Shown: positions 33,392 to 55,516 of the stretch, piece by piece
Numbering within the stretch: position 1 is the first letter of the stretch
Layout of the letters: each line of letters begins with the position of its first letter
Assembly (NCBI GenBank): GCA_016282015.1
Contig: JAEEJS010000032.1
Coordinates: 1 to 64,000 of the forward strand
Reading direction: 5' to 3'
DNA from: Bacteroidales bacterium
Lineage (GTDB): Bacteria; Bacteroidota; Bacteroidia; Bacteroidales; F082
DNA: 64,000 bases
The notes under the pieces: model-generated
Database searches by the model: none
What the model was told of the DNA's origin: nothing
The model's input: the letters and a program-made list of their open reading frames with translations, nothing else
Program-made: the position numbers and the translations under genes

Positions 33392-34930
33392 ATGATAACT
33401 TTTAAGGACAGGATAACTCTCGATGAAGTAGAAAAAGTTTTATACTCAGGCGAGAAAATAGCAGTCTCGGAAGAAGCAATGAAACGCGTCGATGCTTGCT
33501 ATCGTTTTCTTGAGAAATTTGCCTCTGAGAAGGTTATCTACGGTATAAATACCGGCTTTGGTCCCATGGCACAATGGCGTGTAGACGACCAGCATCTCAT
33601 TGATTTACAATACAATATCATACTCAGCCATTCAACAGGCGCAGGCGAGCCTCTTGACGATGTTTACGTCAAGTCGGCCATGATTGCCCGTCTGGGAACA
33701 GTGCTGCAATGCCGTTCGGGCGTACACACCGACGTAGCAAAACTGCTCATAGCCTTCATCAACGAGGGCATCTACCCTTTCATCCCTATGCACGGCAGCG
33801 TGGGTGCCAGCGGCGATTTGGTACAATTGGCTCACATAGCGCTCTGTCTCATAGGCAAAGGCGAGGTGCATTACAAAGGCGAGTGGCGTGATACAGCCGA
33901 AGTGATGCGGCAGTTAGGTATCAGCCCTTTGCAGATGCACTTGCGCGAAGGCCTCTCCATCACCAATGGCACCTCGGTAATGACAGGTATAAGCGCTGTC
34001 AACCAGTTTTATGCCGAGACACTTCTGGACTGGGCCACTCTAGATGCAGTATGGATGAACGAGATAGCCTCATCATTCGACGATTACATGGCCGAAGAGG
34101 AAAACTCCTGCCGCCGTCATGCAGGACAGCAACTGATAGCACGCCGTATGCGCGAGCTGTCGGAAGGTTCGCTCTGCTTAAAAAAACGCGCTCACGAGCT
34201 GTACGACTACGGTCATTCGGATGTGAAGGTGTTTGAACATAAAGTCCAGGCCTACTATTCTCTGCGCTGCACCCCACAGATTCTCGGCCCTATCTGCGAC
34301 ACATTGCAAAATGCACGTCAAATCATCGAAGACGAACTGAATTCGGCCTGCGACAACCCTATAGTCGACCCGGATTCACAAAACGTGTATCACGGGGGCA
34401 ACTTCCATGGCGATTACATCTCGCTTGAGGAAGATAAGGTCAAGATAGCCATGGTGCGTTTGGCCATGACAGCCGAGCGACAGCTCAATTACCTGCTGCA
34501 CGACCGCATCAACGGCATACTGCCGCCATTCCTCAACCTTGGAACTCTCGGTCTGAATTACGGACTGCAGGCTTGCCAGTTTACGGCCACGTCAACCACA
34601 GCTGAATGCCAGACGTTGGCTATGCCGAACTATGTGCACAGCATCCCAAACAACAACGACAATCAAGATATAGTGAGCATGGGAACAAACACCGCTTTGA
34701 TATGCCGACAGGTCATAGAGAACTGCTTCCAGGTGATGGCCGTACATCACATCGCCCTGGCGCAGGCCACCGACTGCCTTGGCATAGCGGGCAAGCTCTC
34801 TCCTGCCACACGCAAGATATACGACAAAATACGCGAAATGGTGCCGCTCATCGTGGACGACACCCCTCACTATAAGGAAATCGCTAAGGTTGAAAACTAT
34901 TTGAAAACAGACAAACTGAACTTGAAATAA
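33392..34930 (+). CDS. Aromatic amino acid ammonia-lyase, likely tyrosine ammonia-lyase
   Basis: MIO triad in GSVGASGDLVQLAH; NTGFGPMAQ, GTSVMTG, YYSLRCTPQILGP, HGGNFHGDYISLEEDK, SIPNNNDNQDIVSMG. Confidence 0.9.
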   Translation: MITFKDRITLDEVEKVLYSGEKIAVSEEAMKRVDACYRFLEKFASEKVIYGINTGFGPMAQWRVDDQHLIDLQYNIILSHSTGAGEPLDDVYVKSAMIARLGTVLQCRSGVHTDVAKLLIAFINEGIYPFIPMHGSVGASGDLVQLAHIALCLIGKGEVHYKGEWRDTAEVMRQLGISPLQMHLREGLSITNGTSVMTGISAVNQFYAETLLDWATLDAVWMNEIASSFDDYMAEEENSCRRHAGQQLIARRMRELSEGSLCLKKRAHELYDYGHSDVKVFEHKVQAYYSLRCTPQILGPICDTLQNARQIIEDELNSACDNPIVDPDSQNVYHGGNFHGDYISLEEDKVKIAMVRLAMTAERQLNYLLHDRINGILPPFLNLGTLGLNYGLQACQFTATSTTAECQTLAMPNYVHSIPNNNDNQDIVSMGTNTALICRQVIENCFQVMAVHHIALAQATDCLGIAGKLSPATRKIYDKIREMVPLIVDDTPHYKEIAKVENYLKTDKLNLK

Positions 34931-35658
34931 TGAAATACGCTCTCATCACCGGTGCTTCACGCGGCTTGGGCAAGGCTGCCGCCTTGCGGCTCGCCAAAGA
35001 CGGCTTCGCTGTGCTTATCAACTATCAGTCGAACAAAGAAGCCGCCGAGGATACTCTGAGACAGGTGCAGGAGGCAGGAGGCTTTGGCGAGCTCATGCCT
35101 TTCGACGTGTCCGACCCTCAAGCGGTAGAGACCGCCATAGAGGCATGGCAAGCCGCGCATCCAGACGAATACGTGTCAGTATTGGTCAACAACGCGGGCA
35201 TCCGCAAGGACAACTTGATGATATTCATGCAGGATTCGGAATGGGACAGCGTGCTCAGCACCTCTCTGACAGGCTTTTTCCACGTAACACGCCGTCTGTT
35301 GAAAGACATGATGACACACCGCAACGGGCGCATCATCAACATGGCGTCTCTGTCAGGACTTAAGGGACTTCCAGGACAGACCAACTACTCTGCCGCCAAG
35401 GCCGCTCTGATTGGAGCCACCAAGGCACTGGCACAGGAGGTCGCGGCCCGTAAAGTAACCGTTAACGCCATAGCCCCGGGCTTCATAGCCACCGACATGA
35501 CCAAGGAACTCAACGAAGACGAACTGAAAAAGCTCATACCCATGGGACGTTTCGGCAAACCCGAAGAAGTGGCGAATCTGGTGTCCTTCCTCGCATCTGA
35601 TGAGGCAGCGTATATCACAGGTCAGGTTATATCCATAAACGGAGGATTGTACTCATGA
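34930..35658 (+). CDS. 3-oxoacyl-ACP reductase (FabG-like)
   Basis: TGASRGLGKAAALRL, NNAGIRKD, YSAAKAALIG, AYITGQVISINGG. Confidence 0.93.
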   Translation: MKYALITGASRGLGKAAALRLAKDGFAVLINYQSNKEAAEDTLRQVQEAGGFGELMPFDVSDPQAVETAIEAWQAAHPDEYVSVLVNNAGIRKDNLMIFMQDSEWDSVLSTSLTGFFHVTRRLLKDMMTHRNGRIINMASLSGLKGLPGQTNYSAAKAALIGATKALAQEVAARKVTVNAIAPGFIATDMTKELNEDELKKLIPMGRFGKPEEVANLVSFLASDEAAYITGQVISINGGLYS

Positions 35659-36875
35659 GAAGAGTGGTTATCACGGGCATAGGTATCTGGTCGTGCTTAG
35701 GCACTGACAAGGAAACGGTGAGCGCGGCTTTGCGCGAAGGCCGTTCAGGCATAGGCATAGACCCTCAACGCATAGAATACGGCTACCGTTCGCCTCTGAC
35801 AGGCATAGTGGCCAAGCCGGAGCTGAAAGGCAAGCTCGACCGCAAGCAGCGCATGTATCTGGCCGAAGAGGGCGAATACGCATATATGGCAACCATGGAA
35901 GCCTTCAGCCAAGCAGGCGTTGACGACGCATATCTCCTCAACAACGAGGTGGGTCTGATATTCGGCAACGACTCCTCAGCAAAGGCTGTCATAGAGTCGC
36001 ACGAGATAGCCATGGCCAAGAAAGACACCACCCTGATAGGATCTGCAGGCATCTTCCAGTCGATGAACTCCACCGTGACAATGAACCTCTCCACCATCTT
36101 CCATCTGAGAGGCATAAATCTGACAATTAGCGCAGCCTGCGCCAGCGGTTCGCATTCCATAGGTTTGGGCGCGCTTCTGATTCGTGACGGACTGCAGGAC
36201 ATGGTATTATGCGGCGGTGCTCAGGAGACCAATTATCTATCGATGGGCAGCTTCGACGGCATCAGCGCTTTTTCCACACGTATAGACGAGCCCACCAAGG
36301 CGTCACGTCCGTTCGACCGTGACCGTGACGGTTTGGTGCCCAGCGGAGGCGCCGCGGCACTGGTGCTCGAAGATTATGATCATGCCGTAGCCCGCGGCGC
36401 CAAAATAATTGCCGAGGTATGCGGATACGGTTTCTCATCAAACGGCGAAAACCACATCTCACAACCCAGCGAAGAAGGCTGCGCCAGAGCTATGACACGA
36501 GCTCTTAACGAAGCCGGACTTAAAGCTGAAGACATAGACTATGTGAACGCCCACGCCACATCCACAGTGCAGGGCGACATGTTCGAAGCCCTAGCCCTGA
36601 AGAGGATGTTCGGCGCCACGCACACTCCCATCTCTTCGACCAAATCTATGACAGGACACGAGTGCTGGATGGCGGGAGCAAGCGAGATAGTATACAGCAT
36701 ACTCATGATGCAGGGCGGCTTCATAGCGCCAAACATCAACTTCGAGAACCCGGACGAGTTTTCCGAAGGTCTCAACATAATCAACAAGACCACAGAAAAA
36801 GAGCTCAACATAGTGCTGTCCAACTCCTTCGGTTTTGGCGGCACAAACAGCGCATTGATAATCAAAAAGTTATAA
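35655..36875 (+). CDS. Beta-ketoacyl-ACP synthase (catalytic C-H-H intact)
   Basis: ISAACASGSHSIG, NAHATSTVQGD, MTGHECWMAGASE. Confidence 0.92.
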   Translation: MRRVVITGIGIWSCLGTDKETVSAALREGRSGIGIDPQRIEYGYRSPLTGIVAKPELKGKLDRKQRMYLAEEGEYAYMATMEAFSQAGVDDAYLLNNEVGLIFGNDSSAKAVIESHEIAMAKKDTTLIGSAGIFQSMNSTVTMNLSTIFHLRGINLTISAACASGSHSIGLGALLIRDGLQDMVLCGGAQETNYLSMGSFDGISAFSTRIDEPTKASRPFDRDRDGLVPSGGAAALVLEDYDHAVARGAKIIAEVCGYGFSSNGENHISQPSEEGCARAMTRALNEAGLKAEDIDYVNAHATSTVQGDMFEALALKRMFGATHTPISSTKSMTGHECWMAGASEIVYSILMMQGGFIAPNINFENPDEFSEGLNIINKTTEKELNIVLSNSFGFGGTNSALIIKKL

Positions 36876-36877
36876 CA

Positions 36878-37972
36878 ATGAAACTATTCCCCAACCTTGA
36901 GAAAGCGTATACTGAAGAGCATCTGACTGCTCCCGAGGCCCAGAGCCGGGCTTATATGATAGCGTTCGGCCCTATAGTTTTCCAGGTGGGACGGCTGATG
37001 ATAAAATTCGGCATACTCGACCTGCTACGCGACAGCGACAAAGGACTGACCCAGGAAGAGATAGTGGGAAAAACCGGTCTCACTCCATACGCCGTGAAAG
37101 TCCTGATGGAGGGCTCCCTATGCATAGGATTAGTGCTAGTCGACACTGCAACCGACCGTTTCTCATTGTCAAAGACAGGATGGTTCCTATTAAACGACCC
37201 GGCTATTAGGGTTAACATCGACTTCAACCACGACGTCAATTACGAGGGATGGTTCAAGCTTGAAGAGGCTCTGAAAGAAGGCAAGCCCTCAGGCTTGGAG
37301 CATTTCGGCAACTGGCCCACTATTTACGAAGGGCTGTCACAACTGCCGGAACAAGTGAAGAAAAGTTGGTTCGGATTCGACCACTTCTACTCTGACGGCT
37401 CATTCGAACAGGCCCTTGACATAGTTTTCAGCTATAAGCCACAAAACCTGCTCGATGTGGGAGGTAATACCGGCCGTTGGGCCCTGCAATGCGTCAACCA
37501 CGACGACAAGGTAAATGTCACCATAATGGATCTGCCCCAGCAACTGGAAATGATGCGTGAGTTCACAAAAGGCCAAAAAGGCAGTGAGCGCGTAGGCGGA
37601 TATGGCATCAATATGTTGGACGACAGCCAGCAGTTCCCAACTGACAAGCACTACGACATCATCTGGATGAGCCAATTCCTGGACTGCTTCGGCGAAAACG
37701 AGATACTGAGCATACTCAGCAGAGCTGCGAAAATAATGGATGCAGACAGCCGGCTTTGCATAATGGAGACCTTCTGGGACCGCCAGAAATACACTCCTGC
37801 CGCATTCACCCTAACCATGACAAGTCTGTATTTCACCGCCTTGGCCAATGGCAACAGCAAGATGTATCATTCTTCCGACATGGAAGCCGTCGTTAACAAA
37901 GCCGGGCTGAAAGTCGAGAAGATACACGATGGTCTGGGATTGGGGCACAGCATTATGGTTTGCAAAAAATGA
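36878..37972 (+). CDS. SAM-dependent O-methyltransferase (Methyltransf_2-like)
   Basis: N-terminal winged-helix dimerisation domain, LDVGGNTGRWALQ, C-terminal HSIMVCKK; ATG 36878. Confidence 0.83.
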   Translation: MKLFPNLEKAYTEEHLTAPEAQSRAYMIAFGPIVFQVGRLMIKFGILDLLRDSDKGLTQEEIVGKTGLTPYAVKVLMEGSLCIGLVLVDTATDRFSLSKTGWFLLNDPAIRVNIDFNHDVNYEGWFKLEEALKEGKPSGLEHFGNWPTIYEGLSQLPEQVKKSWFGFDHFYSDGSFEQALDIVFSYKPQNLLDVGGNTGRWALQCVNHDDKVNVTIMDLPQQLEMMREFTKGQKGSERVGGYGINMLDDSQQFPTDKHYDIIWMSQFLDCFGENEILSILSRAAKIMDADSRLCIMETFWDRQKYTPAAFTLTMTSLYFTALANGNSKMYHSSDMEAVVNKAGLKVEKIHDGLGLGHSIMVCKK

Positions 37973-37990
37973 AGTATAAATTTTTATATC

Positions 37991-38233
37991 ATGAAAAGAG
38001 AAGATATTGAAAAAACAGTCAAAGATTTTATGGTTGAGGAGTTGGAGCTTGACGCGGAGACTATAACCCCGGACGCACGCCTTAAAGAAGACATAGGCAT
38101 AGACAGTCTGGATGTTGTCGACATAGTCGTCATAGTCGAAAAGAGCTTTGGCTTTAAGATTAAAATGGAAGACATGGCCAACATAAAGACATTCAAGCAG
38201 TTCTGCGACTATATAGAGAAGAAGACTGCCTAA
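37991..38233 (+). CDS. Acyl carrier protein
   Basis: 80 aa; phosphopantetheine site GIDSLDVVDIV. Confidence 0.92.
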   Translation: MKREDIEKTVKDFMVEELELDAETITPDARLKEDIGIDSLDVVDIVVIVEKSFGFKIKMEDMANIKTFKQFCDYIEKKTA

Positions 38234-38236
38234 ACG

Positions 38237-39127
38237 ATGGGCGAACAGTTGCAACATAACGAATGGTCGGGCAAGACTGACGGATTGCCATGGATGCAGC
38301 GTTCGCTGATATTCATGTTCCGCATATTCCCGTTATGGCTTGTGTACGGTATTATGGCTTTGGTGGTGCCGTTTTACATGCTTTTCGGCAAAGGATACAA
38401 GGCGAGTTACCGTCTGTACCGCGACAGATTCGGATATGGAGCATTGAAGTCGTTTGTTTATGCTTATACCAACCACTTCCGTTTCGGACAAGTCATCTTA
38501 GACCGCTTTGGTGTTTATGGAGGTAAAAGATATGATTTCATCAAGGAAGGCCAAGATATAATGGACGACCTTGAAAAACGAGAGGAAGGCTTTATAGTGT
38601 TGAGCTGTCATGTGGGTAATTATGAGATAGCGGGCTATTCGTTAAGACCCAAGGCAAAGAGGTTTAACGCTTTGGTGTACGGAGGCGAGACGGCTACGGT
38701 GATGGAGAACCGTCAGCGGCTGCTGGCACAGAACAATATGAGACTCATACTTGTGAAAGAAGACCTCTCGCATATGTTCGAGCTGAACGCTGCCATAGAA
38801 AACGGTGAAATTGTCAGCATACCGGCCGACCGCATTTTGGGATCGCAGAAATATGTGGAATGCGATTTCCTGGGAGCCAAGGCACATTTCCCCATGGGTG
38901 CCTTCGCTTTGGCGGTGAGTAAAAATTTGCCGGTGCTGGCTGTATTCGTCATGAAGGAAGGCCTGCGGAAATACCACGCCTACGTCAGCATTGTGGATTG
39001 CGACAGACAGTTGGGCAGGCAGGATCAGATAGAGCAGATGGCGCATAACTACGTCGGTAAGATTGAGGAAACTCTGAAGCGATACCCCACCCAGTGGTTC
39101 AACTTTTATGATTTTTGGAAACAATGA
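38237..39127 (+). CDS. LpxL/HtrB-like lysophospholipid acyltransferase
   Basis: LSCHVGNYEIAGYSL (HX4E-like), IPADRILGSQKYVECDFLGAKAHFPMGAFALA. Confidence 0.85.
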   Translation: MGEQLQHNEWSGKTDGLPWMQRSLIFMFRIFPLWLVYGIMALVVPFYMLFGKGYKASYRLYRDRFGYGALKSFVYAYTNHFRFGQVILDRFGVYGGKRYDFIKEGQDIMDDLEKREEGFIVLSCHVGNYEIAGYSLRPKAKRFNALVYGGETATVMENRQRLLAQNNMRLILVKEDLSHMFELNAAIENGEIVSIPADRILGSQKYVECDFLGAKAHFPMGAFALAVSKNLPVLAVFVMKEGLRKYHAYVSIVDCDRQLGRQDQIEQMAHNYVGKIEETLKRYPTQWFNFYDFWKQ

Positions 39128-39561
39128 GAAAGATACAGGACATACCATTAAACGAGCTTCTGCCGCAGCGGCCGCCTTTTGTGATGATAGACAGGCTGTT
39201 GATGGCGGAAGGATTGTCATGTGTCACCGAGCTGCTGGTGAAAAACGAAAATGTCTTTGTTGAGAACGGCAGTATGACTGCAGCCGGGTTGGTTGAGAAC
39301 ATAGCCCAGTCGGCTGCGGCCCATATAGGTTACCTCAGCATAGACAAAGGCGATGCCGTGAAGATAGGCGTCATCGGAGCCATTAGCAATCTGAGTATAG
39401 CCCGTACGCCAATGGTTGGAGAGACCATAAAAACCTCCGTCAACAGGCTTGAAGAGGCATTCAACATTACTCTGATAGAGGCAGAGGTGAGATGTAATGA
39501 CGAAGTGCTCGCCAACGCTAGAATGAAGATAGCTTTAACAGATATAGATTCAAAAGAATGA
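39124..39561 (+). CDS. Hotdog-fold beta-hydroxyacyl-ACP dehydratase (ApeP/FabA-like)
   Basis: LLPQRPPFVMIDRLL...AAGLVENIAQSAAAHIGY; ATG 39124 overlaps upstream TGA. Confidence 0.82.
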   Translation: MRKIQDIPLNELLPQRPPFVMIDRLLMAEGLSCVTELLVKNENVFVENGSMTAAGLVENIAQSAAAHIGYLSIDKGDAVKIGVIGAISNLSIARTPMVGETIKTSVNRLEEAFNITLIEAEVRCNDEVLANARMKIALTDIDSKE

Positions 39562-40676
39562 TAGTCTGCGTAGCGCATAACATTACCTCGCCTTTGGGCA
39601 TGACCTCCGCGGAGAATTACTCGGCGGTGAAAGCTGGCTTGTCCAAACTGAGGCAATACGACGGACTTTGGGGACTGCCCGAGCCTTTTGTGGCCTCCCT
39701 GATAGAGCGCGAAGCTTTTACCGACAACAGACATACCATAGTCGAGCAGATGGCTATTCATTCCGTATCAAAGGCTTTGGAAAACGCCGGTATAGACACT
39801 ACATCAGAGAAGGTGATTTTCATAATCTCCACCACTAAAGGCAATGTTTTCCTGCTTGACAAACGGGAACAAGGCTTCCCGCAGGAGCGTGTCAGACTTG
39901 GAATGATGGCCAGACAGATAACTGAATATTTCGGGAATCCAAACGAACCTATTGTGGTTTCAAATGCCTGCATCTCAGGCGTTTGCGCACAGATAGAGGC
40001 GATGCGATACTTGGAGGGCGGCGGCTACGACGCCGCAGTCGTCGTTGGCGTCGACGTGCAGTCGGCCTTCATAGTGTCAGGTTTCCAGTCGCTGAAGGCG
40101 TTGTCACCCGAGCAGTGCAAGCCCTTCGACGCCAACCGCCGAGGTCTGAACCTCGGCGACGCCGCCGCCACTGTCATCTACATCAGAAAAGACAAGGTCG
40201 CTGAGAACGAATGGGTTGCCTGCCGCGGCGCCATCCGCAACGACGCCAACCATATATCAGGTCCGTCGCGCACTGGCGAAGGCAGCTACCGTGCCCTAAA
40301 AGCCACTCTTGGAGACATAGACCCGGCAACCATAGCCTTCATCAATGCCCACGGAACAGCCACTCCATACAATGACGAGATGGAGTCGGTAGCCATAGAA
40401 CGCGCCGGGCTTTCAAGCATCCCGGTCAACTCTCTGAAAGGCTATTACGGTCATACCATGGGAGCGGCGGGAGTGCTCGAAACCGTCATTTCCATGCAAG
40501 CCATAGACGACAACAACATATTGGGGACCAGAGGTTTCGATACCCTGGGGGTGACCCATCCGCTGGATATAACCAGCTGCAATAGGACGACGGCAAAACG
40601 TGCTTTCATCAAGCTTCTGTCCGGATTCGGAGGCTGCAACGCGGCACTGCTCATGGCGAAAGGAGGTCTGCAATGA
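39558..40676 (+). CDS. Beta-ketoacyl-ACP synthase (catalytic C-H-H intact)
   Basis: VSNACISGVCAQIEA, NAHGTATPYNDE, GYYGHTMGAAGVLE. Confidence 0.9.
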   Translation: MIVCVAHNITSPLGMTSAENYSAVKAGLSKLRQYDGLWGLPEPFVASLIEREAFTDNRHTIVEQMAIHSVSKALENAGIDTTSEKVIFIISTTKGNVFLLDKREQGFPQERVRLGMMARQITEYFGNPNEPIVVSNACISGVCAQIEAMRYLEGGGYDAAVVVGVDVQSAFIVSGFQSLKALSPEQCKPFDANRRGLNLGDAAATVIYIRKDKVAENEWVACRGAIRNDANHISGPSRTGEGSYRALKATLGDIDPATIAFINAHGTATPYNDEMESVAIERAGLSSIPVNSLKGYYGHTMGAAGVLETVISMQAIDDNNILGTRGFDTLGVTHPLDITSCNRTTAKRAFIKLLSGFGGCNAALLMAKGGLQ

Positions 40677-41236
40677 TTACACATAGCGTAATAATCACAT
40701 CCGATAAGGTTGTAGTCGACGGACAGACCTTGCCGCACAAAGAGCAAGGTTCCGCTATGCTCACGGAATTGTACCGCAGCCATGTTGGCGACTATCCCAA
40801 GTTCTTCAAGATGGACACCTTGTGCAAAGTGGGTTTCCTGGCATCGGAGTTGCTATTAAACGCCGAGGGCGACAGAAATTTCGAGCCACGTGAAGACCGA
40901 GCCGTCATACTGTTCAACAGAAGTTCCTCCCTTCAGGCCGACACTCACTACCAGTCGACCATACAGGAAGCCGACAACTTCTACCCCAGCCCGGCTGCCT
41001 TTGTGTACACCCTGCCCAACATAGTGACTGGCGAAATCGCCATACGCAACAAATTTATGGGCGAAACCTCCTTCATGGTGATAGAGGATTACGACGAACA
41101 GACTATCATGCAAAATCTCGCCAACGCCTTCCAGGATCCGGTGACTGAGAGTGTAATTAGCGGCTGGTGCGATTGCATGGACGAGGAGCATTTTGAAGCA
41201 AAACTATTTTTGAACAATAAACTAAGCAACAGATAA
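40673..41236 (+). CDS. Small KS-like protein without catalytic Cys
   Basis: 187 aa; thiolase-like segment SPAAFVYTLPNIVTGEIAIRNKFMGETSFMV, no ACxxG or HGT motif. Confidence 0.55.
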   Translation: MITHSVIITSDKVVVDGQTLPHKEQGSAMLTELYRSHVGDYPKFFKMDTLCKVGFLASELLLNAEGDRNFEPREDRAVILFNRSSSLQADTHYQSTIQEADNFYPSPAAFVYTLPNIVTGEIAIRNKFMGETSFMVIEDYDEQTIMQNLANAFQDPVTESVISGWCDCMDEEHFEAKLFLNNKLSNR

Positions 41237-41493
41237 TGGACGAACTGATTTACACTCTGAAAAAACAGATCATAGAGGCTTTGAACCTCGAGGATATGAC
41301 ACCTGAAGACATAGACGAGAACGCTGCCTTGTTCGGTGAAGGTCTCGGACTCGACAGCATTGACGCCCTTGAGCTCATAGTGATGATGGAGAAAAACTAC
41401 GGCATCAAGTTGAAAGATCCGGCACAAGGCAAGGAAATTTTCAAATCAGTGGCTGTTATGGCCGATTTTATCTCTAAAAACAGGACAAAATAA
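41236..41493 (+). CDS. Acyl carrier protein
   Basis: GLGLDSIDALELIVMMEKNYG phosphopantetheine site. Confidence 0.92.
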   Translation: MDELIYTLKKQIIEALNLEDMTPEDIDENAALFGEGLGLDSIDALELIVMMEKNYGIKLKDPAQGKEIFKSVAVMADFISKNRTK

Positions 41494-43691: not shown

Positions 43692-43693
43692 TT

Positions 43694-44047
43694 ATGTGGA
43701 AACTGATAGGACTTGTATCGTTGCAGACCTTCTTCCTTGCCGGAGGACAGGTTCTGCTTAAAATCGCCATGCAACAGCTCGGCAAATTCGAGTGGACATG
43801 GGCTTATTTCAAGACAGTGTTGGTCGACTGGTGGCTGTTGGCTTGCGGCATCAGCTTCGGCTTCGCCGCAGTGCTGTGGCTATACATTATCAAGAGGTTC
43901 CCATTTAGCCAAGCCTACCCGCTCACCAGCATGGCATTTGTGTTCGGAATGATAGCCGCTTGGCTGGTTTTCGGCGAGAGCATACCGTTATCACGTTGGA
44001 TTGGCCTGATTATGGTAGTGGCTGGTTGTTTCTTAATCATGCGATGA
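43694..44047 (+). CDS. EamA/SMR-like four-TM transporter or flippase subunit
   Basis: 117 aa, four TM helices, FPFSQAYPLTSMAFVFGMIAAWLVFGE. Confidence 0.72.
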   Translation: MWKLIGLVSLQTFFLAGGQVLLKIAMQQLGKFEWTWAYFKTVLVDWWLLACGISFGFAAVLWLYIIKRFPFSQAYPLTSMAFVFGMIAAWLVFGESIPLSRWIGLIMVVAGCFLIMR

Positions 44048-44048
44048 T

Positions 44049-45794: not shown

Positions 45795-48700
45795 GTTTTT
45801 CTTATACATACACGACAAATTGTCTGAAAATAAAGCATTATCAATATTTTTATTGTTGATAATGACGGCCTTATGCGTGTTTTCAGCTTTGCGTCTCGAC
45901 TATAAGGAAAACATAGCCGACTTCCTCCCCTCAAACCCTGAAAAAGAAAAATACACCTCGGTTTATGAGGATTTGAGCGATCAGGGACAAATCACTGTGA
46001 TTTTCTCCGGCGACGACAAATACGAGCTCATGGATGCCGTAGACGATTTCGAAAGCAACTGGGCAAAAGCAGACACTTCAATGTTAGTCAGCGACTTACG
46101 TTGCAAAATTGATGACAAGATTGTATTCGACGCCATAGATTTCATAAGGGACAACCAACCTTTGTTCCTCACCGAAAGCGATTACACCCGTATAGATTCA
46201 CTGTTGGCTCAGCCCGATTATGTAGCTACATGCCTGACCAACATCAAGCGGATGCTGGCACTCCCAGCGGTAAGCTTTGTGGTGGAAGGAGCCAAAGCCG
46301 ATCCTCTCAGTCTCTATACCCCTTCCTTACAGCGTCTCAACGCCCTCAATGCCACCGAAGGCTTTGTCGTTGAGGATGAATACCTATTTAACGAAAGCGG
46401 CGACAAGGCTTTCGCTTTCCTCACCTCCCCTTTTCAAGGCAGCGACACCAAAAACAACGCCCTGCTGGTCAATCTGCTTGACAATGTGATTAAAACAACT
46501 CAAGCCAGCCATCCAGAGGTAACTGTATCGGCTGTAGGAGCCCCCACCATAGCCGTCACCAACGCCCAGCAAATTAAATATGACAGTTTCCTCTCCATTG
46601 CTCTGGCCATCATCTTGATATTCAGCATTTTGATGTTCACCATGGCCAGAAAGCGCAACCTGCTGTGGCTGGGTCTGTCTATAGTTTTCGGCTGGATATT
46701 CGCTTTGGCCGTCATAGCACTATTCAAAACTAGCATTTCCATCATAGTGGTTGGCATAGGCTCGGTAATTGTAGGCATAGCCGTGAATTATCCCCTACAC
46801 TATCTTGACCATATCAAGCAGCAACCCGACAGGCGCGAAGCCTTGAAGGATGTGATTCAGCCTTTGGTAATAGGCAACATCACCACGGTGGCGGCCTTCG
46901 CCTGCCTTATCTTTGTAAAAGCCGAGGCCATGCACGACTTGGGCATGTTTGGCGCCCTAATGCTGATAGGAACCATTCTCTTTGTGATGATATTCCTACC
47001 TTTGTTTGCAGTATCACCAAAGAAGACACACCCTCTGTTTGTCGACAGCGGCAGGCCTCAATCTGAGAGATGGAGGAAATTCAAGCTATACGCATTCTGG
47101 CCTTTGATACTTGTAACTTTGATACTCGCCCATTTCAGTCAGAACGCGGCCTTCGACTCTGACCTGCACAATATCAACTACATGACAGAGCAGCAAAAAG
47201 CCGATTTGGCACTTCTGAGCGGATCAATGGAGCAAACCGGTCAAACCGAGTTGATGTATCTGGTGGCGGAAGGCGTTGACATGGAAGACGCATTGGCACA
47301 GAACGAAAAAATCATGTCAAGCCTGCTAGCTTTCAACAGTGACAGTCAAGACATTACAGTTTCTGGACCTTACGGCTTACTGCCTTCCATTGAAGGTCAG
47401 CAACAATCGCTAGATAGATGGGCAGATCTATGGAACCGTCATTCAGACATCCCTGCTAAAGTCCGGCTCGAAGCAAAGAAAGCCGGCTTCACAGAAGATG
47501 CCTTCTCAGTGTTTACCCAAAACATTGAAAAACAATACAATATCAAAACCTTCGACGAGATGGGACCTTTGACGGAGTTGTGCAAGGCCTATACCTTGCA
47601 GCATGACACTGTAGCCAGAGTCATCAATTTCATGCATATTCCGGCAGAGGAATCAGAACCGTTGAAACATCAGTTACGTCAGGCCTTGCCTGAAAGAGCC
47701 TTCGCATTCAGTCTCAGCGACGTGGGCAACAGCCTTGTCACTGCCTTGTCAGACGACTTCGATTATATACTATATGTATGCAGTATAGTGGTGTTCTTCT
47801 TCCTCTGCCTGTCCTTCGGCAGACTGGAGCTTTCGATATTGGCTTTCCTGCCGCTCACCATAGGCTGGGCTTGGATATTGGGAATCATGCACTTAAGTGC
47901 CATCAAGTTTAATATAGTAAACATAATTCTGGCTACCTTTATTTTCGGACAGGGTGACGATTACACCATATTCATAACTGAAGGCTTACTCTACGAATAT
48001 GCCTACGGCAAGAAACTGCTCAAGAACTACCGCAACAGCGTTATCCTATCGGGAATACTGATGTTCATCGGTATTGGAACCTTGATTTTCGCCAAACATC
48101 CGGCAATGAAGTCGTTGGCTGAAGTTGCTATAATTGGCATGGCCACCGTGGTTTTCATGGCCTGTTACCTCCCTCCTATAGTTTTCGGTTGGCTCACCAG
48201 AAAACACGGACAGTTACGTGAGGTGCCGATGACTTTGAGACGTATCATTTATACCGCATTGGTGCTGACCATATTCTTTGTAGCCGCCTTTGTAATTGCT
48301 ACGCCTTTATCTCTGATTTACATTGCTTTATGGCCAAGAACCAAGAACAAACGCTATCATTATCATCAGATGATAGCATATTTCATGCGCTTGGCCCTGA
48401 AGATGCTGCCAGGCGTGACACTCAGTCTTAAAAACAATTTTGGCGAGAAATTTGAAAAGCCTGCCGTTATCATAGCCAACCATCAGTCACATCTCGATTT
48501 GCTATGCATGATGATGCTACATCCCAAGGTGGTACTTCTGACAACAGATTGGGTATGGAAAAACCCAGTATACGCTGTCATAATACGTTATGCCGAATTT
48601 CTACCAGTTTCGGACGGTTATGACCGGAACTTCGACCGTCTGCAAGGCCTTATACAACGGGGGTATTCTGTAATAGTCTTCCCAGAAGGCACACGCTCAG

Positions 48701-49311
48701 CCGACGGCGGCATACTGCGTTTCCACAAAGGAGCCTTCCAACTGGCGCAGGCACTGAACATAGATATTTTGCCAGTGTTCATACACGGTACACACGATGT
48801 GATGCCCAAAAACGATTTGATACTACGCGAAGGGCGTTTGTATATTGAAATAGGCGAAAGGATGCAAGCAGATGAAGTAAAGTCGATGGAAACCAGAACC
48901 TTGGCATCGCACTTCCGCAAGCTTTACATCAGCCGTATGGAAGAAATCAGAAAAGAGAGGGAGGATGTGGAATATGTGCTGCCATATGTCAGGTATAAAT
49001 ATGTTTACAAAGGCAGAAATGTGGAAAGAGTCGTGAGAACCAACCTGAAGAGGATAAAGGCCCATTCTCAAGACATCAACACATTGAATTACAATAGCAT
49101 AGCCATAGCTAACAGCGGCTATGGGGAATTGGCATGGACTGTTGCCCTGGTGCACCGCGACATACAGGTATACGCTTACGAGGAGGATGAAGACAAGTAT
49201 CTGATAGCCTCACATTGCAGTTACATACCAGAGAATCTGCATTTTATTAAAGGTGGAGATATTTCGAAAGATATAGATTGTTTGATTGATAATCATTTAT
49301 TTGCAAGATGA
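45787..49311 (+). CDS. MMPL/RND-type exporter fused to PlsC-type acyltransferase and extra C-terminal domain
   Basis: 1174 aa; two six-TM MMPL halves (VGIGSVIVGIAVNYPLHYLDH; FGQGDDYTIFITEG) then IIANHQSHLDLLCMMMLHP and FPEGTRSADG, then ~110 aa tail. Confidence 0.92.
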   Translation: MNRFFLYIHDKLSENKALSIFLLLIMTALCVFSALRLDYKENIADFLPSNPEKEKYTSVYEDLSDQGQITVIFSGDDKYELMDAVDDFESNWAKADTSMLVSDLRCKIDDKIVFDAIDFIRDNQPLFLTESDYTRIDSLLAQPDYVATCLTNIKRMLALPAVSFVVEGAKADPLSLYTPSLQRLNALNATEGFVVEDEYLFNESGDKAFAFLTSPFQGSDTKNNALLVNLLDNVIKTTQASHPEVTVSAVGAPTIAVTNAQQIKYDSFLSIALAIILIFSILMFTMARKRNLLWLGLSIVFGWIFALAVIALFKTSISIIVVGIGSVIVGIAVNYPLHYLDHIKQQPDRREALKDVIQPLVIGNITTVAAFACLIFVKAEAMHDLGMFGALMLIGTILFVMIFLPLFAVSPKKTHPLFVDSGRPQSERWRKFKLYAFWPLILVTLILAHFSQNAAFDSDLHNINYMTEQQKADLALLSGSMEQTGQTELMYLVAEGVDMEDALAQNEKIMSSLLAFNSDSQDITVSGPYGLLPSIEGQQQSLDRWADLWNRHSDIPAKVRLEAKKAGFTEDAFSVFTQNIEKQYNIKTFDEMGPLTELCKAYTLQHDTVARVINFMHIPAEESEPLKHQLRQALPERAFAFSLSDVGNSLVTALSDDFDYILYVCSIVVFFFLCLSFGRLELSILAFLPLTIGWAWILGIMHLSAIKFNIVNIILATFIFGQGDDYTIFITEGLLYEYAYGKKLLKNYRNSVILSGILMFIGIGTLIFAKHPAMKSLAEVAIIGMATVVFMACYLPPIVFGWLTRKHGQLREVPMTLRRIIYTALVLTIFFVAAFVIATPLSLIYIALWPRTKNKRYHYHQMIAYFMRLALKMLPGVTLSLKNNFGEKFEKPAVIIANHQSHLDLLCMMMLHPKVVLLTTDWVWKNPVYAVIIRYAEFLPVSDGYDRNFDRLQGLIQRGYSVIVFPEGTRSADGGILRFHKGAFQLAQALNIDILPVFIHGTHDVMPKNDLILREGRLYIEIGERMQADEVKSMETRTLASHFRKLYISRMEEIRKEREDVEYVLPYVRYKYVYKGRNVERVVRTNLKRIKAHSQDINTLNYNSIAIANSGYGELAWTVALVHRDIQVYAYEEDEDKYLIASHCSYIPENLHFIKGGDISKDIDCLIDNHLFAR

Positions 49312-50828
49312 AGAAGTGCGTCGTCATAGGAAGTGGCTTGGGTGGGCTTTCCACAGGGGTGATTTTAGCCAAGAACGGCTATGAGGTAACCATACTAGAG
49401 CAAGCTCATCAGATCGGAGGCTGTCTGCAGTGCTTCGAGCGTGAAGGCGTGAAATATGAGACCGGCATGCACTTCATCGGCAGCATGGACGATGGACAAG
49501 TGCTCTCCAACTACCTTAATTATCTGGAAATAAAGGATAAAATCAAGCTAAGTCGTCTGAACCCCGAAGCTTACGATGTAATTTCACTGGACGGAGAACG
49601 TTTTGCCATCCCCAACGGACGTGAAGCCTTCATTGAAAAGCTATCCGCACGTTTTCCATCTCAACGTGAAAATTTGAAGCGTTATTGCGACTTGGTGCAT
49701 CAAGTAGCTTCACTTTCTCCTTATCGCGACCTAGAGGGCAGCAGCGAAGCCTTAACAGATAACTCTTTGTTATTCAGAAGTATAGACAATGTATTGGAAC
49801 AAACCGTCACCGATCCGCTGTTGCGCAAGGTGTTGTTAGGCAACATATCGCTTTATGCAGCCGTGAGAGGCATCACCCCCTTCTCCACCCATGCTTTCAT
49901 ATTCGATTTTTACAATAACGGAGCATTCAGGATTGTAGGTGGCAGCGACACCATAGCCCAAGCCCTGACTGCAGTGTTGAACAGTCATGGTGGTAGAGTA
50001 CTCACGCGGCAGAAAGTCACCAAAATAGCAGTTGAAGACAAGGTCGCAAAAGGCGTGCTGACCGAAAACGGTGAATTCTACCCGGCCGACCTGGTTATTT
50101 CAGACATCAATCCCAAGCATCTGCTTGAAATGGTTGACGACAAGGTATTCAATAGAGCTTACCAGTCAAGAATCCAGGAAATGCGGGACACAGCCTCGGT
50201 TTTCTCGCTCTACTTACGATTCAAGGACGAGAGCATGCCTTATTACAACTCAAATTTCTATGGATTCAGAGTGGATACTCCTTGGGATGTGACAGGAAAG
50301 GTTGACGGAACTTGGCCGCAAGGATATCTCTACATGCACTATTGCCATGAAGATAATCCGCGCTTCGCTCAAAGTGCCGTGATTCTGTCGTACATGTCTA
50401 TGGATGCCGTAAAGCAATGGGAAGGCACCTCTGTCGGGCATAGAGGCTCTGATTATGAGCAGTTTAAAAAAGACATGGCCGAACGTCTGATATCGTTGGT
50501 GGAGAAAGATTTCCCCGGTTTGAGAGACAGCATAGCAGATATCAACACAGCCACTCCACTAACCTACCGCGACTACACTCTAACCCCCAACGGCTCCATG
50601 TACGGTTTGGCAAAAAACGTACAGATGGGTGTAGCCGGATCCATATTACCCAAAACAAAAGTGCCAAATCTGTTGCTGGCCGGACAGAGCGTCAATGCCC
50701 ACGGCATGCTGGGAGTGCTTGTTGGCAGCATGAAGGTTTGCGCGCAACTGATTGGAGAACAGGAACTCAGACGACAAGTCATTGCAGCCAACAGCAAGAG
50801 TTCAAGTTGTAAAAATATTGCAAAATGA
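49308..50828 (+). CDS. FAD-dependent oxidoreductase of the CrtI/retinol-saturase type
   Basis: VIGSGLGGLSTGVILAKNGYEVTILEQAHQIGG; C-terminal LLLAGQSVNAHGMLGVLVGS. Confidence 0.88.
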   Translation: MKKCVVIGSGLGGLSTGVILAKNGYEVTILEQAHQIGGCLQCFEREGVKYETGMHFIGSMDDGQVLSNYLNYLEIKDKIKLSRLNPEAYDVISLDGERFAIPNGREAFIEKLSARFPSQRENLKRYCDLVHQVASLSPYRDLEGSSEALTDNSLLFRSIDNVLEQTVTDPLLRKVLLGNISLYAAVRGITPFSTHAFIFDFYNNGAFRIVGGSDTIAQALTAVLNSHGGRVLTRQKVTKIAVEDKVAKGVLTENGEFYPADLVISDINPKHLLEMVDDKVFNRAYQSRIQEMRDTASVFSLYLRFKDESMPYYNSNFYGFRVDTPWDVTGKVDGTWPQGYLYMHYCHEDNPRFAQSAVILSYMSMDAVKQWEGTSVGHRGSDYEQFKKDMAERLISLVEKDFPGLRDSIADINTATPLTYRDYTLTPNGSMYGLAKNVQMGVAGSILPKTKVPNLLLAGQSVNAHGMLGVLVGSMKVCAQLIGEQELRRQVIAANSKSSSCKNIAK

Positions 50829-52141
50829 GGATGAAGTCGTTATATATAACACTGTTACTGATACTCAGCATTCAGCTGCCGGCCCAGTCGGTGCAAGATG
50901 CCTGTGTGACAGATATACGTGACTTCACTTTCACCGAACTTATGAACGAGGGTCTTAATACCATGGCGCGCCAATTAGATATTCTGCATGTTCCCGTACG
51001 GCAGTTCAAGTTTGTAATCAAAGGGCATATCAGGCGTCATCATTTTGCGCTCAATAAAGGAAAAAACAGTGTAAAGAAGACCACTTTCCGTGCTATTTCA
51101 TTTACCTACACCTCGATTTCTCCTCAAGGCGACCCTGTGACACTGTCCGGGCTTGTCACCATTCCAATTTTGCCAGACAACAAGCCTTCCAGAATGCTTG
51201 TTTATCATCGCATTATGGCTCCGAGCTACACCATAACCCCTTCCCGCGACATCCCAATAGAAGCTGTGCTGACAGCCGATAACACTATCTGCGTGTTCCC
51301 CGATTATTACGGTTGCGGCGTCACTGAAGGCAAGCCTCATCCTTATATTGCGCTCAACTATCACGCGCGCTGCGCCACCGACTGCGTCTTGGCAGCACTT
51401 GATATAGTACAGGATGCCGGGATTGCTTTGTCCGACGATTTCTATACTTGGAACACAGGTTACAGTCAGGGTGGCGGCTACGCCATGGCCATGCACAAGT
51501 ACATAGAAACCGTACTGCCCGACAGTCTTGCCCAGCGTATCAATCTGCGATGGAGCTTGTGCGGAGACGGAGTTTACAAGCCCATAAACCTTTACGAAAC
51601 AGCCATAAGCAGAAGCAATATGGGCAGCACCCCAACTGTTTATCTACAAGGACTGCGCAGCCTGTTTTACGCTCACAGTGACTGTTTGGGTGATCTCCAA
51701 TTGCGCGATTTTCTCTCCGACAAAGCCATTGAGACAGGCATAGACAGCATACTGCTAGTTAATGACGACAGCCTGTGGGATCTTGTTTACCGACTTGATA
51801 ATAGAGTGGAAAGCGCTGACCCGAACTATTATTTCAACCCCATGGTACTCGACACCAATACGTCTCTGTTTAAAACCATGGCAGCGGCATTTGATCTGGA
51901 CGATTGCGTAGAGGGATGGACCCCGCAATCGCCTGTAATAATGCTACATTCCAAAAACGACAACTGCATCCCCTATCAGCATGCGGTGATGACATACCGG
52001 AAACTAGAAGGGAAAGGCGGTTCTGTCAAACTGGTCAATCCGTCAATCAACAAAGCCCACGTTTCCACTAGCATCATCTACTTTTCCAAGCTATTGAGAA
52101 TACGAGAGGACAAGCTTTACCAAAAACTGGCCGGCAGATAA
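50825..52141 (+). CDS. Secreted alpha/beta-hydrolase (lipase/esterase-like)
   Basis: Signal peptide; NTGYSQGGGYAMAM nucleophile elbow; MLHSKNDNCIPY acid loop. Confidence 0.75.
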   Translation: MRMKSLYITLLLILSIQLPAQSVQDACVTDIRDFTFTELMNEGLNTMARQLDILHVPVRQFKFVIKGHIRRHHFALNKGKNSVKKTTFRAISFTYTSISPQGDPVTLSGLVTIPILPDNKPSRMLVYHRIMAPSYTITPSRDIPIEAVLTADNTICVFPDYYGCGVTEGKPHPYIALNYHARCATDCVLAALDIVQDAGIALSDDFYTWNTGYSQGGGYAMAMHKYIETVLPDSLAQRINLRWSLCGDGVYKPINLYETAISRSNMGSTPTVYLQGLRSLFYAHSDCLGDLQLRDFLSDKAIETGIDSILLVNDDSLWDLVYRLDNRVESADPNYYFNPMVLDTNTSLFKTMAAAFDLDDCVEGWTPQSPVIMLHSKNDNCIPYQHAVMTYRKLEGKGGSVKLVNPSINKAHVSTSIIYFSKLLRIREDKLYQKLAGR

Positions 52142-52160
52142 TCATTTAACCCATAAAAAT

Positions 52161-52191
52161 TTTGTGAAATAAAATAATAGTCGTATCTTTG
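52161..52191 (+). promoter_or_regulatory. Bacteroidetes promoter TTTG-N19-TATCTTTG
   Basis: TTTG 52161-52164, 19-bp spacer, TATCTTTG 52184-52191; fits the -33/-7 consensus upstream of 52232. Confidence 0.7.
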
Positions 52192-52231
52192 CGACAACTA
52201 ACGGGGTTATGCCTAAGTTTTTGTGTAGAGA

Positions 52232-53095
52232 ATGTTAAGAAGATTAGTTGTTTTATCGTTATTGATTTTAACTGCAGCAACCGTCGCCGCTCAAGAAAGA
52301 ATAAGAATTTGGGGCGATGGCGAGGTAAAACACAGCAAACAGGTAACTTTAACGCCATTTATAGCAGAAAACAACATTGACGGCACCTCGGTAATAATTT
52401 GTCCTGGAGGCAGTTATTTCTGGCTCGCCAAAATGAGTGAAGGCGACGATGTGGCCCGTTGGTTTCAGTCGCAAGGCATTTCAGCTTTCGTCCTCCGTTA
52501 CAGAGCGGCCACATGGGGCGCATATTTTTTCCATTACCATCTTATTTTCAGAGGTCACCAGCATCCCGACATGCTGCTTGACGCCCAGCAGGCTATCAAG
52601 TATGTAAAAGAGCATTCCAAAGAATATCACATAGACCCTGACCGTTTGGGTATCATAGGTTTTTCAGCCGGAGGTCATCTGGCAATGATGACAACCTGTT
52701 TCTCAGACAGGGAGGAAAACCATCCGGCCTTTGCAGGCAGCATCTATCCAGTGGTGACTATGAACGAGCCATACGTGCACAAACGTTCCCGTCGCGCCTT
52801 GTTGGGAGAGTACAGAAAAAACGATGCCGTCTGGCGCGACTCACTGTCATTGGAACTTCAGGTACCGGACGACTGTCCGCCGGTGTTTATCGTCAACTGC
52901 GTCGACGACCCGACTGTTGATTACCACAACTCCATCCTGCTCGATTCCACTTTAACAGCAAAAAATATCAAGCACAGATACATTCAATACAACACAGGCG
53001 GACACGGTTTCGGCGTAAGCGAAGTCAAAGGCAGCGAGGAATGCCGGAACTGGAAGTATGAGTTTATCGAATGGCTTGATGAAACGGGCTTTTAA
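52232..53095 (+). CDS. Secreted alpha/beta-hydrolase, acetyl-esterase/xylan-esterase-like
   Basis: ICPGGSYFWLA, LGIIGFSAGGHLAMM, signal peptide. Confidence 0.83.
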   Translation: MLRRLVVLSLLILTAATVAAQERIRIWGDGEVKHSKQVTLTPFIAENNIDGTSVIICPGGSYFWLAKMSEGDDVARWFQSQGISAFVLRYRAATWGAYFFHYHLIFRGHQHPDMLLDAQQAIKYVKEHSKEYHIDPDRLGIIGFSAGGHLAMMTTCFSDREENHPAFAGSIYPVVTMNEPYVHKRSRRALLGEYRKNDAVWRDSLSLELQVPDDCPPVFIVNCVDDPTVDYHNSILLDSTLTAKNIKHRYIQYNTGGHGFGVSEVKGSEECRNWKYEFIEWLDETGF

Positions 53096-53096
53096 T

Positions 53097-54407
53097 ATGT
53101 TTAATGTTATGATTGACAACGACATTGAATACAAATCCATTGAGGAAATCAAGGCTTTCCAGGAACAGTCGCTCCACGAAGCACTGAAATATCTGGAGGC
53201 TAATTCACCATATTACCAGCGAATGTTCAAGAGCTACGGCATCAATATAGAGAAGATTCGCCACATAGAAGATTTGGTGAAGATCCCATTCACCGAGAAA
53301 AAAGACTTACAGCTGTTCAACGACGAGTTTCTGTGCTGTCCGAAGCACAAAATTATAGATTACATCACCACTTCGGGCACTTTGGGCGACCCGGTGACAT
53401 TCGGATGCACCGAGAAAGACCTGCAGCGACTGGCTTACAATGAGAAAAAGTCGTTTGAATGCGCCGGCGTCAAGCCCGGTGACATAGTGCAGCTGATGAC
53501 CACACTGGACAAGCGCTTCATGGCCGGACTGGCATATTTTCTCGGCCTCCGCGAGCTTGGCGCCGGCGTCATTCGTGTGGGTAACGGCATACCGGAGTTG
53601 CAATGGGACACCATACGCCGCATCAAACCCGACACCATAATGTGTGTGCCGTCTTTCATTCTGAAGCTCATACAATACGCAGAAGACCACAACATTGACT
53701 ATAAAAACAGCAGCATACGCCGCATCATAGGCATAGGCGAAGGCCTTCGCGACCAGGACTTCAACCTCAACCTGCTTGGCCGCAAAATCAAGGAGAAATG
53801 GGATGTACAGCTGTTTGCCACATATTCTTCCACTGAAATGGGCGCCACCTTCTCGGAATGCGAATTCGGAATGGGAGGTCATGTGCATCCGGAGCTTATC
53901 ATAGTGGAAATTATAGGTGACGACGGACTGCCTGTACCCGACGGCCAGCAAGGCGAGATAGTGATTACAACCCTCGGCGTTGAAGCCATGCCTCTGCTGC
54001 GTTTCCGCACAGGCGACATAGCCTCTAAAATAGTAGAGCAATGCCGATGCGGACGCAATTCCTACCGCCTCACCCCTCTGGTCGGGCGCAAGAACAACAT
54101 GATAAAGCTCAAGGGCACCACCCTGTACCCGCCAGCGATAAACGATGTTCTCGACAACACCGACTATGTTGAAAATTACGTCATAGAAGTGCGCCAAAGC
54201 GAGGCTGGAACCGACGATGTAGTAGTCAAAATCGGACTGAAGCACCAGCCCGACTTCGATGTGGTGAAAGAGCTGAAAGACAGTTTCCGCTCACGCATAA
54301 GAGTGGCACCGCAAATAGAAATCCATAGTGTTGAGGAAATACAGAAGATCAATTATCCGGCAAAGAGCCGTAAACCCATAAAATTCATCGACTTAAGAAA
54401 CAAATAA
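53097..54407 (+). CDS. AMP-forming aryl-CoA/acyl-ACP ligase (phenylacetate-CoA-ligase-like)
   Basis: TTSGTLGDPVTFGCTEKD, ATYSSTEMG, LRFRTGDIA, GRKNNMIKLKGTTLYP; start choice 53097 or 53109 uncertain. Confidence 0.87.
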   Translation: MFNVMIDNDIEYKSIEEIKAFQEQSLHEALKYLEANSPYYQRMFKSYGINIEKIRHIEDLVKIPFTEKKDLQLFNDEFLCCPKHKIIDYITTSGTLGDPVTFGCTEKDLQRLAYNEKKSFECAGVKPGDIVQLMTTLDKRFMAGLAYFLGLRELGAGVIRVGNGIPELQWDTIRRIKPDTIMCVPSFILKLIQYAEDHNIDYKNSSIRRIIGIGEGLRDQDFNLNLLGRKIKEKWDVQLFATYSSTEMGATFSECEFGMGGHVHPELIIVEIIGDDGLPVPDGQQGEIVITTLGVEAMPLLRFRTGDIASKIVEQCRCGRNSYRLTPLVGRKNNMIKLKGTTLYPPAINDVLDNTDYVENYVIEVRQSEAGTDDVVVKIGLKHQPDFDVVKELKDSFRSRIRVAPQIEIHSVEEIQKINYPAKSRKPIKFIDLRNK

Positions 54408-55516
54408 TGGCTAAATTCGACGACATACGACCCTATAATTCCGACGAGTTCCCTTCAGCTATGCAGCGTATAGCCGACAGCGAGCTTATACCGTCCATAG
54501 CCCAATACCTCATGCCGGACACAGACGCTGAAGTACTTAGGGATAGACTACGTAGCATCAAGAATATCTATGAGTTACAGGTTGGATTCCTAAAAGAAGT
54601 CATCGAGATTTTAGTAAAAAAGACTACCACCCGATTCGATTGGTCCGGGCTTGACAACATAAAGGAAAAGAAGCCTTACCTGTTTATTTCCAACCATCGT
54701 GACATAGTGCTCGATGCCATGTTTCTCCAGTATATACTGAATGCCGGAGGTCACAACACCTGTCAGATCACTTTTGGCAGCAACCTCATGGAGCACCCTT
54801 TGGTAGTAGATTTCGGCAAGGCCAACAAGATGTTCCGCATAGAACGGGGCGGCAACCGTATGGAGTTTTACAACAATCTGATGCACACATCAGAATATAT
54901 GCGTCATGTCATTACTGATGAGAAAGAGTCGGTATGGATAGCCCAGCGTAACGGACGCACTAAAAACGGCATAGACGCCACCGACCCTGCCATTATCAAG
55001 ATGTTTTGGATGAGCCGTCGCGACGACAAGGTGCTTTCCTTGGCGGAAATGAACATAGTCCCGGTATCAGTGTCATACGAGTGGGAGTCGTGCGACAAGC
55101 TGAAAACCCTGGAACTCTATGCCACCAAGGTCAACGGCCGCTATGAAAAGAGACCGGGCGAAGACCTCAACAGCATCATCACCGGCATAATGCAGCCCAA
55201 AGGACACGTACATTTCCACATATGCGAGCCGGTCAGCAAGGAAGATTTAATCAGGATGGACAGCATACCGGGAGACTACTTCACCAACATAGCCAAGTTG
55301 ATAGACGAACGCATCAACTCAGGTTATACGTCGATGTCCAATAACTTCATCGCCAACGACTTACGAAGCGAAAGCAACAAATATGCCAGCTATTATACTG
55401 AACAGCAAAAAGCTGATTTTCTGAGGTATATGAAATGGATAGACGATTATAAAGACCACGATCAGGCCCTTTTGCGCGATATATTCCTCGGAATTTACGC
55501 CAACTCAGTGCGATAG
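54407..55516 (+). CDS. Glycerolipid acyltransferase-like protein (PlsB/PlsC superfamily)
   Basis: FISNHRDIVLDAMFLQYIL (HX4D), IAQRNGRTKNG. Confidence 0.8.
   Translation: MAKFDDIRPYNSDEFPSAMQRIADSELIPSIAQYLMPDTDAEVLRDRLRSIKNIYELQVGFLKEVIEILVKKTTTRFDWSGLDNIKEKKPYLFISNHRDIVLDAMFLQYILNAGGHNTCQITFGSNLMEHPLVVDFGKANKMFRIERGGNRMEFYNNLMHTSEYMRHVITDEKESVWIAQRNGRTKNGIDATDPAIIKMFWMSRRDDKVLSLAEMNIVPVSVSYEWESCDKLKTLELYATKVNGRYEKRPGEDLNSIITGIMQPKGHVHFHICEPVSKEDLIRMDSIPGDYFTNIAKLIDERINSGYTSMSNNFIANDLRSESNKYASYYTEQQKADFLRYMKWIDDYKDHDQALLRDIFLGIYANSVR

Follow-up and report, generated by a model that had tools for sequence, protein, structure and literature searches.

Flexirubin pigments serve as a taxonomic marker, and a hit to FlxA or to 'arylpolyene' is taken as the sign of a flexirubin producer. 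We asked whether this holds for a locus in a stretch of 64,000 nucleotides from a ruminant-type gut Bacteroidales genome (assembly GCA_016282015.1, contig JAEEJS010000032.1, positions 1 to 64,000; hereafter the window). On its plus strand, from position 33392 to 55516, there are 22 genes, most of them directly adjoining the next or sharing a few bases with it (Table 1). Five of the encoded proteins (FlxA, FlxB, FlxJ, LolA2 and FlxY) exceed the curated NCBIfam cut-offs for flexirubin proteins and the gene order is conserved in dozens of genomes, so the cluster is more than a chance grouping. Judged by its gene content, it is confirmed as a compact, operon-like aryl-polyene (APE) cluster that is predicted to encode nearly everything needed to make a yellow membrane pigment from tyrosine, of the flexirubin/aryl-polyene kind. 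This pigment class is known; what is notable is that genes for making the resorcinol half, which a true flexirubin also has, are missing from the cluster and from almost all of its gut relatives. We consider it very probable that this is an flx aryl-polyene cluster that lost, or never had, the dialkylresorcinol (DAR) branch; its product is likely a 4-coumarate-primed aryl-polyene lipid.

The feature that defines a flexirubin cluster is the presence of DarA and DarB for the dialkylresorcinol half. In a Flavobacterium-type genome (G170), the interval between the LpxL-like gene and the second ketosynthase (KS-2) holds DarA, DarB (675.5 bits to NF053539), a second dehydratase (DH), a BtrH_N/DUF4872 protein, an ABC transporter and a thioesterase, and the same dar block occurs, in a split cluster, in a genome of the window's own family (G407). 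The Azoarcus dar cluster also has ABC-transporter genes (PMC3949708). In the window this interval contains one DH only; DarA, DarB, the BtrH-like protein, the ABC exporter and the thioesterase are absent from the locus. In the rest of the genome the best DarA score is 20 bits, from a fragmentary match, and the sole ketoacyl synthase III (KASIII) is FabH, with 330.5 bits to a FabH-type model vs 39 to DarB (cut-off 550). The BtrH-like protein, which in relatives is present together with dar, is not in the genome either. The DarA homologue itself has no match in NCBIfam or Pfam; we take it to be DarA from its position beside DarB, its co-occurrence and the F. johnsoniae locus. Because the DAR-defining pair was looked for and is not there, the genes of the locus class it as an aryl-polyene cluster whose initiation is of the flexirubin type, and not as a flexirubin cluster. 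The label of the original prediction, 'flexirubin-type', fits the polyene half in families and gene order and fails for the resorcinol half.

How far does this pattern extend? FlxA scores above its cut-off in 34 of 396 Bacteroidota genomes and in 46 of the 100 genomes of the window's family. Within the family, DarA is found in 31 of the 33 FlxA-positive genomes from other genera (in 4 of the 31 only as fragments at contig ends) and in none of the 13 from the window's genus (Fisher p 1e-9; the genomes are not independent). Other families, outside the order, have DarA in all but 2 of 32 FlxA-positive genomes, both exceptions falling in one family (f7), and G238, a genome from another family of the same order, is FlxA-positive with DarA absent. 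Furthermore, we tested 33 genomes among 80 named closest relatives, mostly metagenome-assembled genomes of ruminant, horse and other gut Bacteroidales: no DarA score among them exceeds 23 bits, and no DarB score its cut-off. The relatives were retrieved by patterns from this FlxA, which by itself accounts for part of the gut bias of this sample. In a clade that comes mostly from ruminant and other animal guts, the genes for the polyene half persist where those for the resorcinol half have gone, so the presence of flx genes is not enough to predict flexirubin. Such pigments are usually credited with protection against oxygen radicals and light, and the question is raised why gut anaerobes retain one. 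Polyene clusters with and without DAR genes have already been recognised across bacteria (PMC3949708), which makes one without dar no novelty in principle. Flexirubin-like clusters in gut Bacteroides have also been noted; the arylpolyene cluster pBGC-12 of Bacteroides xylanisolvens is described as similar and syntenic to the flexirubin cluster of Chitinophaga pinensis (PMC12940132). For gut Bacteroidales, the openly accessible literature yielded no account of flx clusters that are without dar.

In the FlxA tree, the gut sequences, the window's genus and G238 form a single clade (SH-aLRT 100; 100/100 in the careful tree), which includes sequences labelled Bacteroidaceae, Rikenellaceae and Prevotellaceae, and the dar-positive genera of the window's own family form a separate one. 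A constraint keeping the family together was rejected by 244 log units (approximately unbiased test, p ~1e-44, for the single gene FlxA). Horizontal transfer would explain this most simply; an old duplication followed by differential loss might also do so, though less simply.

For the polyene half, we infer the starter and elongation chemistry from characterised homologues. In C. pinensis, FlxA is biochemically shown to be a tyrosine ammonia-lyase (TAL) with about 1000-fold selectivity for tyrosine over phenylalanine, and FlxY to be a 4-coumarate-CoA ligase (PMC3992019). The lyase of the window carries the methylideneimidazolone (MIO) motif GASGD in the context GSVGASGDL. A histidine ammonia-lyase (HAL) reading was rejected, since the protein scores 826.9 bits with the FlxA model vs 420-426, below cut-off, with the HutH models, and a separate HAL-like gene is present on contig C13, beside a histidyl-tRNA synthetase-like gene. 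The original prediction let an AMP-ligase produce the aryl-acyl carrier protein (ACP) directly; the ligase belongs to the FlxY family, and activation probably goes via CoA first, because C. pinensis FlxY is a CoA ligase. It also named an O-methyltransferase for ring methylation. This enzyme is present as a FlxJ-family member, 'O-methyltransferase' being only the name of the fold, and is probably a ring C-methyltransferase, because labelling of C. pinensis flexirubin shows that a single methyl from methionine replaces a hydrogen of the aromatic ring (PMC3992019).

The elongation set has three KSs with an intact Cys-His-His triad, as judged from an alignment with the genome's FabF and the Flavobacterium-type homologues. 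The same residues are absent from KS-4 and from a 187-aa protein that the original prediction had missed. Sequence searches of Pfam, NCBIfam and PDB gave no match for the latter. Its AlphaFold2 model, built with 32 orthologues (predicted local distance difference test 86.5), was compared with the PDB using Foldseek, and the top matches were the chain-length factor (CLF) of the ishigamide polyene synthase (6kxe_B, E 2e-6) and ApeC, from the aryl-polyene synthase (6qsp_B, E 4e-6); prob was 1.00 for both, and the TM-scores were modest (0.57-0.63). ApeC is a CLF of half the usual size, built of a single thiolase fold (PMC8358021). The modelled protein folds like polyene-synthase chain-length factors and is a candidate CLF; together with the KS triads, this supports an iterative polyene-type KS:CLF system in which the partner assignment is putative.

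The pathway would then run as follows. FlxA would deaminate tyrosine to 4-coumarate, and FlxY would make 4-coumaroyl-CoA, to be loaded on ACP. The intact KSs with their Cys-less CLF-like partners would extend it with malonyl units, FlxB would reduce and the hotdog proteins would dehydrate; a conjugated polyene acid would grow because nothing in the cluster, which has no enoyl reductase, reduces the enoyl. FlxJ would methylate the aromatic ring. Without a DarA/DarB/BtrH-like module the polyene would not be esterified to a dialkylresorcinol; LpxL/PlsC-type acyltransferases would pass it to a (glyco)lipid, perhaps with a sugar from the family 2 glycosyltransferase (GT2) and an ArnE/F-like flippase, and MMPL and LolA2 would carry this to the outer membrane. 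The acceptor, the flippase role, export, chain length and colour we only infer. The scheme proposed originally, from tyrosine over 4-coumarate, an activated starter, the polyene and ring methylation to the envelope, is well supported by the family models, the collinearity described below and the FlxA/FlxY biochemistry (PMC3992019).

We compared the cluster with known systems. Homologues of 17 of its genes stand in the same order in the Flavobacterium-type genome, with identities of 53% (TAL), 63% (KS-1), 64% (ACP2), 52% (GT2), 57% (FlxY) and 29% over the full length of MMPL; collinearity is also seen with other Bacteroidales clusters. FlxJ is absent from the Flavobacterium-type cluster and has a 62% homologue in G238. 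With the flx/dar clusters of C. pinensis and Flavobacterium johnsoniae the window shares FlxA, FlxB, FlxJ (Chitinophaga), FlxY, LolA2, GT2, MMPL, the CrtI-like protein and the type II KS/ketoreductase (KR)/DH/ACP/CLF-like set for the polyene, which is collinear with Flavobacterium. Besides the dar-block genes named above, it is without the NodB deacetylase, and its GT2 is without the C-terminal domain of the flavobacterial one. It differs from them also by the presence of the EamA/ArnEF-like transporter and the extra hydrolases. The APE clusters of E. coli CFT073, Xenorhabdus doucetiae and Acinetobacter have, like the window, no dar genes. They share a type II KS with a half-size CLF, a FabB-like second KS, two ACPs, KR and two DHs, as well as a methyltransferase, acyltransferases, a glycosyltransferase, LolA and an RND/MMPL transporter; in the window, the 187-aa protein and KS-4 would be the Cys-less partners and the DH family matches are weak. 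On the other hand, the starter would be made from tyrosine via TAL and coumarate ligase vs 4-hydroxybenzoate in APE, and the window sequences match flx families.

The EamA/ArnE-F-like gene occupies the place that a NodB-type deacetylase has in dar-positive clusters. It recurs in gut relatives and is not in the Flavobacterium, G238 or own-family dar-positive clusters compared. Together with the polyprenyl-phosphate-type GT2, a flipped sugar-lipid step can be imagined. A wider proposal, about which our doubts slightly outweigh our confidence, is that gut Bacteroidales hold a distinct, possibly horizontally spread flx branch, which has shed the dialkylresorcinol module in full and whose product is an aryl-polyene (glyco)lipid primed by 4-coumarate and anchored with the help of GT2 and the ArnE/F-like flippase; this would be a chemically undescribed class of outer-membrane pigments of anaerobes.

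Could the product be a classical flexirubin after all, with dar genes that the draft assembly failed to capture, or with other enzymes standing in for them? In other genera of the family dar is often far from flxA, and the genome is a draft. We think this improbable, since DarA is missing from all 13 FlxA-positive genomes of the genus and does not exceed 23 bits in the 33 gut relatives, the only KASIII is FabH and the BtrH-like partner is missing too. Some points do weigh against the preferred reading of a dar-less aryl-polyene cluster. The window lies on contig C38 of a 2.46-Mb draft in 74 contigs (98.3% complete); the dehydratase-family matches of DH1 and DH2 are weak; no thioesterase is among the cluster genes, which leaves no obvious enzyme for release; and the clade is not entirely free of related chemistry, as a distant StlD/DarB-family KS lies away from the cluster in two dar-minus relatives, the Prevotellaceae genome KH2P17 and G238 (489 and 499 bits, under the cut-off). 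For this reason we gave up the claim that the clade has no dar at all. These KSs, which might produce a small dialkylresorcinol signal or something akin to it, stand beside TetR-like genes, with DarA not adjacent (L178, 3605-5252; L179, 3684-6294).

Two other readings concern the lipid. The KR, KS, DH and ACP are like those of fatty-acid synthesis (FAS), the acyltransferases are LpxL- and PlsC-like and the hotdog matches are weak, as would be expected if the cluster served primary FAS or made a specialised saturated lipid (e.g. unusual lipid A acyl chains). We give this very little credit: TAL, 4-coumarate ligase and a ring methyltransferase stand in one operon with CLF-like subunits and without an enoyl reductase. 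Primary FAS was rejected as the role of the cluster, and the concern that its KSs might be primary FAS enzymes only does not hold, because a FabH-FabF-FabZ...FabG operon lies on contig C46 and a further KS on C54; the window set is neither the genome's only KS/FabG/FabZ set nor its main one. The C46 operon (L010, G000:C46:20000-36000, 6640-13860) comprises FabH-FabF-FabZ, EtfB/EtfA-like proteins, an acyl-CoA dehydrogenase and FabG, and the electron-transfer flavoprotein/dehydrogenase pair might be its enoyl reductase. The aryl polyene could also be made as a free carboxylic acid or sugar ester, with the acyltransferases acting on another substrate; two cluster hydrolases could cut esters. This seems unlikely to us, since several acyltransferases and LolA/MMPL are conserved in dar-positive and dar-minus clusters as well as in the APE clusters of E. 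coli, for which, with the same acyltransferase, glycosyltransferase, LolA and RND outfit, a lipid anchor has been proposed (PMC8253772).

All genes listed in the original prediction (a lyase, FabG, three KSs, two ACPs, two hotdog proteins, a methyltransferase, LpxL- and PlsC-like acyltransferases, LolA, MMPL, GT2 and an AMP-ligase) were found in frame on the plus strand. Table 1 adds to these the two KS-fold proteins without catalytic residues, the EamA/ArnE-F-like transporter, a CrtI/CrtD-like flavoprotein, two hydrolases and a PlsC domain fused to MMPL, additional to the separate PlsC-like protein.

Table 1. Genes of the aryl-polyene cluster, in window positions, with the matches on which their names are based
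Feature	Positions	Strand	Evidence
FlxA, tyrosine ammonia-lyase (MIO enzyme)	33392..34930	+	NF053541 826.9 bits, cut-off 700; PF00221; 52-88% to relatives
FlxB, FabG-type ketoreductase	34930..35658	+	NF053542 409 bits, cut-off 340
KS-1, FabB-like ketosynthase, Cys-His-His intact, analogue of ApeR/FlxC	35655..36875	+	PF00109/PF02801; top NCBIfam model FabB PRK07967, under cut-off
FlxJ-family methyltransferase	36881..37972	+	NF053543 589.2 bits, cut-off 560
Acyl carrier protein 1	37991..38233	+	PF00550; GIDSLD motif
LpxL-like acyltransferase	38237..39127	+	PF03279 57.4 bits; ~30% to flavobacterial cluster homologue
DH1, hotdog dehydratase-like	39124..39561	+	weak FabZ match, 33 bits; 39% to DH of flavobacterial cluster
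KS-2, FabF-like ketosynthase, triad intact	39558..40676	+	PF00109/PF02801; alignment
187-aa half-size Cys-less condensing-enzyme fold, candidate CLF	40673..41236	+	fold comparison
Acyl carrier protein 2	41236..41493	+	NF006617 82.7 bits, cut-off 70
KS-3, FabF-like ketosynthase, triad intact	41494..42690	+	alignment; top PDB matches are FabF-type KSs
KS-4, KS-like without Cys-His-His, second CLF-like subunit	42687..43691	+	PF00109 partial; alignment
EamA / ArnE-ArnF-like small membrane transporter	43694..44047	+	PF00892; ArnF/ArnE models under cut-off
LolA2, flexirubin-type periplasmic carrier	44049..44675	+	NF053544 153.4 bits, cut-off 125
DH2, hotdog dehydratase (FabA/ApeI-like)	44678..45049	+	PF07977 25.8 bits; PF22818 ApeI-like 18.4, under cut-off
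GT2 resembling polyprenyl-phosphate sugar transferases	45042..45794	+	PF00535; 52% to flavobacterial homologue
MMPL exporter fused to PlsC acyltransferase, short C-terminal remnant	45787..49311	+	PF03176, PF01553; 29% full-length to Flavobacterium
CrtI/CrtD-like FAD oxidoreductase	49308..50828	+	PF01593; TIGR02733 148.8 bits, under cut-off; 34% to flavobacterial cluster member
Secreted alpha/beta hydrolase, lipase-like	50825..52141	+	weak PF00326/PF03583
Secreted BD-FAE/acetylesterase-like hydrolase	52232..53095	+	PF20434; 64-66% in two same-genus clusters
FlxY, 4-coumarate-CoA ligase	53058..54407	+	NF053551 713.3 bits, cut-off 520
PlsC-like acyltransferase, last gene of the cluster	54407..55516	+	PF01553 37.9 bits; homologue adjoins flxA in own-family genomes

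The cluster is bordered downstream by a convergent gene for a transglutaminase-core protein (55518-58064, minus strand). Directly upstream are two proteins with sorting signals of the type IX secretion system (T9SS), one at 30222-31289 and a CotH/LTD-domain protein at 31294-33303, the end of which marks the border. Similar T9SS-sorted/CotH-type genes are also found upstream of the cluster in a genome of the same genus (G476).

The lipase-like hydrolase has no counterpart in the eight clusters compared. In its place, between the MMPL and FlxY genes, G476 (L074/L075) has a doubled CrtI-like protein of 990 aa and a B12-binding-radical-SAM-like protein. The last 130 residues of the MMPL-PlsC fusion look, by eye, like the start of a methyltransferase-type Rossmann fold; this part is shorter than in Flavobacterium and possibly degenerate. 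Several gut relatives (L098, L107, L110, L116, L128, L135 and L168, near 12250-14650) have insertions of about 0.6 kb among the KR, KS-1 and methyltransferase genes, which encode small signal-peptide proteins of barrel-like or unknown kind.

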